Shown: piece by piece, positions 13,421 through 21,040 of the stretch
Layout of the letters: every line of letters begins with the position of its first letter
Numbering within the stretch: the stretch's first letter is position 1
From: a virus
Direction: 5' to 3' (one strand)
Length of the DNA stretch: 21,247 bases
IMG/VR virus record: IMGVR_UViG_3300009132_000048
Span: 1-21,247 of that record
Notes under the pieces: model-generated
Seen by the model: only the letters and a program-made list of their open reading frames with translations
Database searches by the model: none
What the model was told of the DNA's origin: nothing
Program-made: the position numbers and the translations under genes

Positions 13421-15303
13421 TAGTTAGCCACCGTTGTATAGTCAATACCAGCAGTTGTACCACCAGTAGCCATAGTATCTATCTCTCCTGTTATCGTTGC
13501 GGTTGAGGTATTAATTGTTAATAATTCATTTCTTGTAGGTGACACATCAGATGATGCTGGCTTAACAGTCACGTCAATTGTAGTTGAGCCTGTAGGTAAT
13601 GCAGTTGGTTGAAATGAGTTAAGAGTAACTATTCCAGACTCTTCATTCACATCACCAACATTTGCACTTTGTACTAAACCATCTGTATTAACTATTTGAA
13701 TAATTCGTGTATCACTTGAGCTATCATAATAGTCTTTAAGTTTACAATCAACACCACCAAATGTGAATACGGTTGAAGTCAAATAAGCACCAGTAGTACC
13801 TGTAGTAGCATCAATATCAGTTAATGCTTGATTAAATTTAAGAGTATATTTAGTTGCTGTACCAAGAACAGGTGTAATTTTTTTGGTCATTTTTACACGA
13901 GTGATATTAGATAGGATAGCAATATTTGTATCATCAATTTTCTTCACAACATTTGAATCTCTATATACTCCATTAAAACTCTTAAGGGTATCATTATTAT
14001 ATGCCACGAGTGTAGTCCTTATTGAAGTTGCTAAACCAGATGCTGTTACTGTAGCAAGGTTAGGATTATATTTAAAATAGACTTCAAGGTCTATATAAGT
14101 GTATTCTGGGTCGACAAGAACCGGAGTGATGGATACGACATTTTTTGGCTTAAGAATGTTAGTTTTTATTGTTGTCTTTTGAGCATCAGTTAGTGTTTCA
14201 GCAGATAATGGTTTAATACTTATATAAACTTTACCATAATCTGGTACATCATGGTCTTCACCACCCCATACAGCAACAGCTTCAATGTCGGCAAATTCGT
14301 TTTTAATAATTGTCTTATAGTCATCAGGTGTAACAGCCCTATTTTGAGATACATGTGAAAGTGGAGCATTAAACTTAATTGCTTCTTTAGTTTCTCTTGG
14401 TGCACCACCAGTAGCTTTAGTTACTAATGTGATGGTCTCATCTGAGTTACCAGCAATTGAATCTGTCAATGTAAATGTAGTGGCACCATTAACGTCAGTG
14501 CCTGATGATATCTTAGAGTATTCAATAGTAATTATAGCACCATTAAGTGGTCTTTTACCAACTATATTATCACCAAACTTAATTTCATAATATCCATCTC
14601 TTCCTTCTTCTAAAAAGTATACTTCACTTGTACCGTCTAAGTTTACCATATTAGTATTTAAAGTATAAACCTTAGATGCAGTAGATGCACTTGAATCTTT
14701 CACAGTGACTTTAATGGATTTTGTATTTGCATTAATATCAGGAATTAAATATGTTTCAAAAGTATTATTTTGATATGTGTATACTATAGTTTCTAATGTT
14801 CCTTGCTCAATCTCAAGGTTTGAGAATAACCAACCATTAGTTGCATCATAGTTGATGGTAGTGGTCGTTGAATTAAACATTGGATATGTGATACCATCAA
14901 TAACCGTTTGAAATGTAGTACCCCTTGTCATAGTTAATGGTAGTGGATTATTATCTGCGTCATGATTCCATAAAGGAGTGGCAGAACCTTTAGCCATCTT
15001 ACAATTTATAACAGCGACCGAGGGCGCTATAGACCTTGGTGTATATCCTAATAGCTTAGCGTGAGATACCACAGAAGTTCGTAATTGAGCTGTGTCAAGG
15101 AATGTTTCATTAAGAGCAAAGTTTGCATTCATTGAATTTATATGTGTTACATAACTTAATACGTCAATAATGGTTGCCATTGCTGAGCCTTCATAGTTAT
15201 AGTCATTGAAGGTTGTATCGGTTGCTTTCATATAAGCAACTAAGTTATTTTTTAATTGGTCAAAATCTAATTCACTTGCTGCTATTCTACGTTCTATTGC
15301 CAT
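13420..15303 (-). CDS. 6: Baseplate wedge protein gp6, baseplate J-like
   Basis: This 627-residue protein compares with 660 residues for T4 gp6. The N-terminal helical part is diagnostic: DFDQLKNNLVAYMKATDTTF at 13-32, then YEGSAMATIIDVLSYVTHIN at 37-56, NETFLDTAQLRTSVVSHAKL at 65-84 and LGYTPRS. The middle has YYEIKFGDNIVGKRPLNGAI at 238-257, a typical baseplate-J strand pair. Residues 313-364 (APLSHVSQNRAVTPDDYKTI, ...YGKVYISIKP) are the conserved gp6/gpJ block. The C-terminal 130 residues are Thr/Ser/Asp-rich and less conserved. gp6 forms the continuous ring that links the wedges and that changes shape on contraction. The ATG overlaps the gp25 stop (TAATG), with GAGAGAT upstream. Confidence 0.93.
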   Translation of the reverse strand: MAIERRIAASELDFDQLKNNLVAYMKATDTTFNDYNYEGSAMATIIDVLSYVTHINSMNANFALNETFLDTAQLRTSVVSHAKLLGYTPRSIAPSVAVINCKMAKGSATPLWNHDADNNPLPLTMTRGTTFQTVIDGITYPMFNSTTTTINYDATNGWLFSNLEIEQGTLETIVYTYQNNTFETYLIPDINANTKSIKVTVKDSSASTASKVYTLNTNMVNLDGTSEVYFLEEGRDGYYEIKFGDNIVGKRPLNGAIITIEYSKISSGTDVNGATTFTLTDSIAGNSDETITLVTKATGGAPRETKEAIKFNAPLSHVSQNRAVTPDDYKTIIKNEFADIEAVAVWGGEDHDVPDYGKVYISIKPLSAETLTDAQKTTIKTNILKPKNVVSITPVLVDPEYTYIDLEVYFKYNPNLATVTASGLATSIRTTLVAYNNDTLKSFNGVYRDSNVVKKIDDTNIAILSNITRVKMTKKITPVLGTATKYTLKFNQALTDIDATTGTTGAYLTSTVFTFGGVDCKLKDYYDSSSDTRIIQIVNTDGLVQSANVGDVNEESGIVTLNSFQPTALPTGSTTIDVTVKPASSDVSPTRNELLTINTSTATITGEIDTMATGGTTAGIDYTTVAN

Positions 15304-15701
15304 TATCGTAATCTCTCTATTGTGGTAGTAATATCAAGTACTTCATTACTTGATTTAACTCTCCCGGTTACTGTTACCTTTACTTCATTTTCATCAGCCT
15401 TAGCCTGAATATTTGTATTTAATACTTCTATTCTTGGCTCCCAATTACTTAAAGCAGTATTAATTGAAGTAGACATACTTGCTGCTGTTGCTCTGGTCAT
15501 ATTCTCAAATAAATATCTCCTTAAGTTAGCACCAAAATTATAATTAAATGGTCTCTCTCCATGATTAGTTCTTAATATGTTTAATACACTTTGACTTATT
15601 GAAGCATTATCTTTTTTTATTCCAACGTCATTGGTATTAGGATTTTGTTTAAAAGCAAAATCTAAATCTTTGTAAGTACTTTGTCGTGCTATTGTTGCCA
15701 T
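15303..15701 (-). CDS. 25: Baseplate wedge protein gp25
   Basis: The protein has 132 residues, the same length as T4 gp25. Key family residues are visible: TNHGER at 45-50, NFG at 55-57 and LFE at 64-66, followed by a helix and the C-terminal strand block VKVTVTGRVKSSNEVLDITT. gp25 joins gp6, the gp7-position protein and gp53 in the inner wedge and contacts the first sheath ring. A late box TATAAATA at 15715-15708 ends six bases before the ATG, and no clear ribosome site exists between them. Confidence 0.93.
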   Translation of the reverse strand: MATIARQSTYKDLDFAFKQNPNTNDVGIKKDNASISQSVLNILRTNHGERPFNYNFGANLRRYLFENMTRATAASMSTSINTALSNWEPRIEVLNTNIQAKADENEVKVTVTGRVKSSNEVLDITTTIERLR

Positions 15702-15707
15702 ATATCT

Positions 15708-15715
15708 TATTTATA
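15708..15715 (-). promoter_or_regulatory. T4-type late promoter box for gp25
   Basis: A perfect TATAAATA on the minus strand directly follows the gp5 stop codon and lies six bases before the gp25 ATG. T4 late transcripts start about six or seven bases after the box, which here would place the start at the A of ATG. Confidence 0.7.
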
Positions 15716-19739: not shown

Positions 19740-19747
19740 TATTTATA
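19740..19747 (-). promoter_or_regulatory. T4-type late promoter box, leftward, for the baseplate operon
   Basis: A perfect TATAAATA on the minus strand lies 26 bases before the gp48-like ATG. The predicted start near 19734 leaves a leader of about 20 bases that contains the ribosome site AAGGA. It is the only box seen ahead of the gp48-gp53-gp27-gp5 set. Confidence 0.75.
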
Positions 19748-19755
19748 CGAATAGT

Positions 19756-19763
19756 TATAAATA
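19756..19763 (+). promoter_or_regulatory. T4-type late promoter box, rightward, for gp4
   Basis: A perfect TATAAATA lies five bases before the gp4 ATG and eight bases from the opposing leftward box. T4-like spacing puts the transcription start exactly at the A of ATG, and no ribosome site is present. Confidence 0.72.
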
Positions 19764-19768
19764 CTCGT

Positions 19769-20266
19769 ATGAAAAAGACATATTCTGGTTCATGGAGACC
19801 AAAACACCCTGAGAAATATAATGGTAATATTGATATGATACATTATAGGTCTTTATGGGAAAGAAATGCATTTAGATATTTAGATAAAGCTTCATGGGTT
19901 AAGTGGTGGCAATCTGAAGAGACCATTATACCATATATATGTTCAACCGACCGCAAGATGCATCGCTATTTTGTTGACCTTACCATAAGAACAAACACCG
20001 GCCGTACTCTCCTGGTTGAAATAAAACCAAGTGCACAAACCAAACCACCTAAAAGAAAACAATTAAGTGAAGCATTGACCTATATGAAGAACACTTCTAA
20101 GTGGAAGTATGCTAGGAAGTACTGTGATGAACATGGTTATGACTTCCAAATATGGACAGAAAAAGAATTAGAAGCTATGGGTATACGTACAATGACCTTA
20201 GGATTTAAAGCTAGCAAAACAAAGACCGGTCGAAGAATATGGAAAACCCTTAAGAAAAGAGTATAA
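19769..20266 (+). CDS. 4: Head completion protein gp4, TnsA-like nuclease fold
   Basis: This 165-residue protein compares with 150 residues for T4 gp4. The motif pattern IHYRSLWERNAFRYLD at 24-39, WVKWWQSEETIIPY at 43-56, HRYFVDLTI at 65-73 and LLVEIKPSAQTKPP at 81-94 is diagnostic. Glu31, Asp70, Glu84 and Lys86 fit a PD-(D/E)xK-type site as in TnsA-like nucleases. The C-terminus is strongly basic. In T4 the protein (also called gp50/65) completes filled heads before tail joining. It is the first gene of the rightward block, diverging from the baseplate genes as in T4, where gene 4 diverges from gene 53. Confidence 0.92.
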   Translation: MKKTYSGSWRPKHPEKYNGNIDMIHYRSLWERNAFRYLDKASWVKWWQSEETIIPYICSTDRKMHRYFVDLTIRTNTGRTLLVEIKPSAQTKPPKRKQLSEALTYMKNTSKWKYARKYCDEHGYDFQIWTEKELEAMGIRTMTLGFKASKTKTGRRIWKTLKKRV

Positions 20267-20269
20267 ATA
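20262..20269 (+). promoter_or_regulatory. T4-type late promoter box for the 63-residue gene
   Basis: A perfect TATAAATA overlaps the gp4 stop codon and lies five bases before the next ATG. This is the same box-to-ATG distance as at gp4. AGG at 20271-20273 is too close to the ATG to act as a normal ribosome site. Confidence 0.68.
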
Positions 20270-20274
20270 TAGGT

Positions 20275-20466
20275 ATGGATAACAAGGAAGATGAAGGTAA
20301 ACTTGAGCTCTCAATACGCATATTGGGTAATGAGATAATAGGTTTTCAAATGTTAGTAAATGATTTTAAAATGAAATGGATGTTAATAGGTTTAATGGGT
20401 ATTGGAATCATTGCATATATAATGGTTACCTTTGGTCCGCAATTAATGGAGACGTTTAGTGGCTAG
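20275..20466 (+). CDS. Small single-span membrane protein
   Basis: This is a 63-residue protein. A charged N-terminus (MDNKEDEGKLELSIRILGNE) and an amphipathic middle lead to a hydrophobic span at about 34-53 (KWMLIGLMGIGIIAYIMVTF), then a short tail. No signal-peptidase site is obvious. It starts nine bases after gp4 and overlaps the next gene by eight bases. Its own late box argues that it is expressed with virion genes. The function is unknown. Confidence 0.72.
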   Translation: MDNKEDEGKLELSIRILGNEIIGFQMLVNDFKMKWMLIGLMGIGIIAYIMVTFGPQLMETFSG

Positions 20467-21040
20467 TTTATTTGATACATTAGAGGCAGAAGCATTCCGT
20501 AAGGGATTAAAAGCTCGTTCAAAAGAAGCTGCATTATGGTTTCAAAGAAAAGCTAAAGAGCTTGGACCATTAGGTAAGGCGGTACTTAAAGATGAGAGGT
20601 TACAAACAGTTGGTAAGCCAATACCAGGTGATATGATAATGTATACATATAACCCAAAGCTTAGACAACAACTTCCATACTATGATACCTTCCCTTTAAC
20701 TATTGTGGTTGGACCAGCTAAAGATGGTTTTTATGGTATTAACTTGCATTACTTACCACCAACAGTAAGAGCTATATTTTTGGACCATTTAAGTGACGTT
20801 GCATCTAATAAATACTTTAATAAAACAACTAAATTTAGAATAACTTATAACTTACTAAAAGCCACAAAAAATTATAAATACTTTAAACCTTGTTTTAAAC
20901 ATTATTTAACAAAGCATGTATCTTCTAATATATCAAAAGTAAATGCTTCAGAATGGCATATAGCAATATTTTTAGAGACAGCTGCATTTAGAAAAAAATC
21001 AACCAGGTTTGTTTGGGCACAGTCAAGGAGACAATATTAA
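20459..21040 (+). CDS. Conserved-looking phage protein of unknown function, GTG start
   Basis: This is a 193-residue basic protein. The central block GDMIMYTYNPKLRQQLPYYD at 57-76, then FPLTIVVGPAKDGFYGINLH at 78-97 and YLPPTVRAIFLDHL, looks like a conserved beta domain. The C-terminal half is basic and aromatic (KNYKYFKPCFKHYLTKHVSS, RFVWAQSRRQY). I do not recognise a characterised family. The GTG start is supported by GGAG at 20448-20451, seven bases upstream, and by the eight-base overlap with the previous gene. The position after gp4 is where T4 has gene 2 (DNA end protector), but no similarity supports that name. A head, neck or DNA-binding virion role is possible. Confidence 0.78.
   Translation: MASLFDTLEAEAFRKGLKARSKEAALWFQRKAKELGPLGKAVLKDERLQTVGKPIPGDMIMYTYNPKLRQQLPYYDTFPLTIVVGPAKDGFYGINLHYLPPTVRAIFLDHLSDVASNKYFNKTTKFRITYNLLKATKNYKYFKPCFKHYLTKHVSSNISKVNASEWHIAIFLETAAFRKKSTRFVWAQSRRQY

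Follow-up and report, generated by a model that had tools for sequence, protein, structure and literature searches.

At virion and other late genes of a lineage of T4-like phages that infect marine heterotrophic bacteria, the T4-type late promoter box TATAAATA recurs at a fixed, very short distance before an ATG, and we consider it probable (roughly 0.8), judging from sequence features, that two architectures coexist at this promoter, which would be read by a gp55-type sigma factor. In the ordinary architecture, the box lies about 25-31 bases ahead of the start codon, and the short leader has a Shine-Dalgarno (SD) sequence. In the second one, box and ATG are separated by exactly five bases or, in some cases, six (N5 or N6, the number giving the bases between box and start codon); transcription starting six bases past the box would then begin at the A of ATG and yield a leaderless mRNA, to be translated by ribosomes binding the 5'-terminal AUG. 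Predicted leaderless late mRNAs are the best explanation for the combination of an N5 spike, lineage-wide conservation, a start-site mark and the absence of SD sequences.

Late boxes in the window and at gp4

The window, i.e., the whole stretch of DNA analysed, is the viral record IMGVR_UViG_3300009132_000048 (21,247 nt). Its relevant features are as follows.

15303..15701, minus strand: gp25, baseplate wedge (phrog_261, E 6.4e-42); predicted leaderless or with a one-base leader
15708..15715, minus strand: late box of gp25; N6 before ATG 15701, with the stop of the preceding gene immediately before it
19740..19747, minus strand: late box of gp48, divergent from gp4; N26, ATG 19713, SD AAGGA
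19756..19763, plus strand: late promoter box TATAAATA of gp4; N5 in gp4 relatives too
19764..19768, plus strand: five-base spacer CTCGT; in relatives the letters differ, the length is constant and the final base is T or C
19769..20266, plus strand: gp4, head closure protein; its late mRNA is predicted to start at 19769 and to be leaderless
20262..20269, plus strand: late promoter box of the 63-codon gene; overlaps the gp4 stop TAA 20264-20266
20275..20466, plus strand: 63-codon gene; N5, predicted leaderless; hydrophobic segment; stop overlaps the gp2 start
20459..21040, plus strand: gp2, DNA end protector (phrog_429, E 3e-50); GTG start, SD GGAG

As a sequence-only reading of this DNA had claimed, the boxes at 19756-19763 and 20262-20269 are each followed by exactly five bases (CTCGT and TAGGT, respectively) and then by the ATG of gp4 (19769) or of the 63-codon gene (20275). 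Inspection of the window sequence also bore out its claim that neither gene has a usable ribosome site, there being no SD at usable spacing. A third short-spaced site is that of gp25, with box-N6-ATG on the minus strand, where gp48, gp53, gp5 and gp6 are also encoded; gp2 comes after the 63-codon gene. The identity of gp4 is given by phrog_218 (E 1.9e-47) and a Pfam TnsA-like endonuclease N-terminal domain, and between TAA 19733 and ATG 19769 no in-frame ATG, GTG or TTG codon occurs. The 63-residue protein matched nothing in PHROG and nothing at significance in Pfam; about half of the relatives have its gene, which has been lost repeatedly. An Rfam scan of the window found nothing.

The box sits upstream of late (virion) genes, as a T4-type late promoter requires. 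A homologue of the late sigma factor gp55 was found in one relative (G001, 2.5e-50) and in the isolates HTVC008M, Mosig and Melnitz; the evidence for gp55 comes from these four genomes, since the 21 kb of the window include no part of the genome with such a gene.

With gp4 as query, viral contigs yielded 80 loci, 78 of which had enough upstream sequence (79 with longer records included). The arrangement TATAAATA-N5-ATG was present at gp4 in 79 of 79 loci (78 of 78 before the longer records were added), which are kin and do not count as independent events. The spacer letters vary (CTCGT, CTACC, GTTAT, GTTGT, TACAC and others), while its length is always five. The gp48 box in the same intergenic region, an ordinary leadered site that is an internal control for gp4, drifts in its distance (N26 in 57, N27 in 15, N28 in 3 and N47 in 1). 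Because the gp4 spacing is fixed while that of gp48 drifts, the spacing appears to be constrained on the predicted leaderless side and free on the leadered side.

The gp4-gp2 junction could be read in 78 cases, including the window, and its box is followed by an ATG at N5 in 75 and at N6 in 3. What comes after this ATG varies: the 63-codon gene in 37 of the 78, gp2 itself in 10 and, in most others, mini-ORFs of 6-14 codons, a count that includes one ended by the contig edge (L024). On the gp4 tree, the downstream cistron changes at least 12 times, a count that recombination may inflate, and the box-proximal ATG is kept. The mini-ORF junctions include those of L002, L010, L017, G003, G004, L040, L043 and L069, among others, and their stops overlap the gp2 start or fall just inside it (TAATG, TAGTG, ATGGCTAG); at L040, gp2 is without an SD. 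Elsewhere, on the reverse strand of G002 (box 65456), a 9-codon mini-ORF at box-N5-ATG shares an ATGA overlap with a gene for 226 aa, and on the reverse strand of G001 (box 23020), a 6-codon mini-ORF at box-N5-ATG stands directly before a 93-aa ORF starting from TTG. These junctions tentatively suggest that leaderless initiation might act as a ribosome-loading device, the mini-cistron delivering ribosomes to gp2 by termination-reinitiation, an idea that we hold to be somewhat doubtful. A simpler reading is that the mini-ORFs are leaders with SD whose first three bases are still ATG by descent.

Box-to-ATG distances in relatives and reference phages

The distances were surveyed in six long contigs plus the window, that is, seven phage records of about 438 kb with 140 boxes, counting ATG-started ORFs of at least 50 aa and using 55 anagrams of the box as control. 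N5 was occupied by 23 boxes against 0.75 expected from the anagrams and N6 by 8 against 0.53, N4 and N7 were empty (near-empty in larger sets), and a second, broad mode lay at N25-31; the same-composition anagrams gave no N5/N6 peak. A flat distribution in relatives, which the sequence-only reading had named as speaking against its proposal, was thus not what we found: the distances peak sharply at N5/N6, apart from the mode at N25-31. ATG is the start codon of all 31 N5/N6 ORFs of at least 50 aa, and GTG, TTG and CTG occur at N5/N6 at background level only.

When the set was enlarged to 81 sources, an N5 or N6 member occurred in 15 protein families, and N5/N6 was the modal distance in 13 of 48 families. 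These families include gp4, gp25 (N5/N6 in 30 of 30 clade members located behind a box), gp2, the 63-codon gene and a radical SAM protein, and further ones are an Asp/Arg hydroxylase, a CHASE2-guanylate cyclase and a gp19-like tail protein. The cyclase, which is about 613 aa long and combines CHASE2 with a guanylate cyclase, is an N5 gene at G001 18021 and G002 93222, reverse strand; HTVC008M also has an annotated cyclase, and such cargo is unusual among late genes of phages. An inverted repeat, GGTGATTATATAATCACC, follows the late box within the leader at G005 21840, G006 22548 and G002 58095, ahead of a gene that begins MAGTVVKIKQS, and a structured leader is possible there.

An apparent N9 ATG peak was rejected, as it comes mostly from one site within the gp2 coding sequence and is therefore not a start. 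In the window's clade, boxes with other first letters (CATAAATA, AATAAATA and GATAAATA) gave a single N5 site and no additional peak; in HTVC008M and Mosig, they raise the number of N5 sites by several.

Among reference phages examined by the same method, T4, KVP40, Syn9 and P-SSM2 had no N5/N6 site, the late boxes of T4 lying at N13-34 with one more at N52. N5 sites were found in C48C1 (one), HTVC008M (five), Mosig (two) and Melnitz (two, or three by raw pattern), and 9 of the 10 raw-pattern N5 sites of the last three phages are start codons annotated by others. The N5 mode is thus common to the cultured SAR11 and OM43 phages HTVC008M, Mosig and Melnitz. Orthologous genes differ in their spacing: for gp4, the box is at N26 with SD AAGGAG in T4, at N29 in C48C1 and at N5 in the window's clade; for gp25, it is at N30 in P-SSM2, N20 in C48C1, N16 in Melnitz, N8 in Mosig, N5 in HTVC008M and N5/N6 in the window's clade. 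By geometry, gp2 would be leaderless (N5) in HTVC008M, Mosig, Melnitz and ten relatives of the window. Among viral contigs related to HTVC008M, gp2 is at N5 in 18 of 25 loci, and gp25 is at N5 or N6 in 45 of the 63 loci with a resolved start and at N7-N9 in the others. The contigs with a gp25 box at N7-N9 fall in L281-L301, where leaders of two to four bases would be expected (1-4 bases for such relatives in general).

Start-site mark, ribosome-binding signals and rival explanations

The T4 late box occupies positions -13 to -6 (PMC1524935). Its +1 is thus at box+6, in agreement with the start about six bases downstream on which the sequence-only reading had relied, and this is the position taken by the A of ATG in N5 genes. 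The composition around the expected start was examined across leadered promoters from the window's clade, with one count per family (32 families). T stands at box+5 in 20 of the 32 (p 5e-5) and A at box+6 in 24 (p 6e-4); a pyrimidine-A step occupies box+5/+6 in 20 families and other positions in roughly 1 to 13. In N5/N6 families, the base preceding ATG is T or C, one singleton family excepted. The T-A mark, coming from leadered promoters, offers independent evidence that supports a predicted transcription start at the A of ATG. SD pairing energies separate the two classes (family-level p 7e-4): pairing is strong in leadered families but weak where the box is at N5/N6. By sequence, N5/N6 genes thus have the marks of leaderless genes, namely a spacing that puts the predicted +1 at ATG, no SD and an ATG start; from these we infer the actual 5' ends and the translation of leaderless mRNA in the host.

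An alternative that we regard as unlikely accepts the box as a real late promoter and holds that N5 genes are translated mainly from read-through transcripts by coupling, the short spacing being a by-product of compaction. It suits the 63-codon gene, which starts 8 bases past the gp4 stop, and gp25, directly behind the preceding gene. Read-through from gp4 is indeed a real additional route for expression of the 63-codon gene, and both genes, lying close behind upstream genes, could be translated by coupling on longer transcripts. However, gp4 has no co-directional upstream gene, being divergent from gp48, and it is still at N5 in every one of the 79 loci. Furthermore, compaction would be expected to produce a spread of short distances, but the observed spike stands at 5-6 with 4 and 7 empty, and compaction does not predict T or C before the ATG.

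Still less probable is a start slightly upstream of ATG, giving leaders of 1-4 bases and ribosomes that act on short-leader mRNA without SD. If +1 lies at box+6, leaders this short would indeed arise at the N6 genes and at gp25 in those distant relatives that have N7-N9; however, N5 dominates, the T-A mark lies at box+5/+6, and the known geometry of the T4 promoter sets +1 at box+6 (PMC1524935). Finally, chance in A+T-rich DNA or common descent, to which the roughly twofold excess of TATAAATA in the window (9 against 4.6 by chance) and the kinship of the gp4 loci might point, can be dismissed as an account of the geometry as a whole, which the non-flat distance distribution refutes, with no N5/N6 peak for anagrams, N5/N6 modal in thirteen gene families, and no such site in T4 and P-SSM2 despite similar G+C.

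Relation to known systems and meaning

Late transcription of T4 is a textbook system, and T4 late mRNAs have SD leaders. The T4 late promoters, which depend on gp55, gp33 and gp45, have a box identical to that of the window, and leadered late genes are also present in the window's clade. In T4, however, no box is nearer than N13 to an ORF start and the late leaders carry SD, whereas the window's clade has N5/N6 sites without SD. The late genes of pelagimyophages and OM43 myophages resemble those of the clade, with N5 at gp2 and, in HTVC008M, also at gp25, csgF and others; unlike in the window's clade, gp4 is not at N5 in HTVC008M, Mosig and Melnitz, where gp2 or gp25 is. According to a study of pelagimyophages, attempts to predict late promoters in their genomes failed (PMC7029224). 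For Melnitz, 15 late promoters have been listed, with no treatment of spacing in the parts of the paper that we consulted (PMC9004378).

In bacterial leaderless genes, the position of the -10 element makes the A of ATG the +1 base, and there is no SD (PMC3160421; PMC4117421). Those of Caulobacter, mycobacteria and Deinococcus (TANNNT about 10-12 bp upstream) show the same placing of promoter to ATG, but they use the -10 element of the host sigma-70, whereas the marine phages would use a phage late-sigma box at virion genes late in infection. Leaderless mRNA is translated in bacteria by 70S binding at the 5' AUG (PMC9031893), and the alphaproteobacterium Caulobacter has 375 leaderless genes that are translated as well as leadered ones (PMC4117421). 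In SAR11 (400 kb of one genome, which may not be that of the host), -10-like boxes before genes showed at most a slight bump at N5/N6. A phage leaderless mRNA is also known, that of lambda cI (cited in PMC9031893), with AUG at the 5' end as predicted for the N5 genes; it belongs to a single repressor gene, whereas the architecture in the marine phages recurs at many late genes.

Leaderless genes are therefore already known, and what is provisionally new is their coupling to a T4-type late promoter. The part of the literature that we searched gave no account of leaderless late genes in T4-like phages, cyanophages or Pelagibacter phages, consistent with the novelty that the sequence-only reading had supposed. 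Its proposal of a leaderless mode finds support in the spacing spike, the absence of SD and the T-A mark; its attribution to this phage alone does not stand, since the predicted mode appears to belong to a T4-like lineage of marine heterotroph phages.

Overall, promoter and start codon have apparently been merged at some virion genes of ocean phages, which would reduce the regulatory region to 13 bases and bypass SD recognition. Such an arrangement would account for start codons liable to escape gene finders that rely on SD, and it leads one to expect that leaderless mRNAs are translated late in the infection of marine bacteria.
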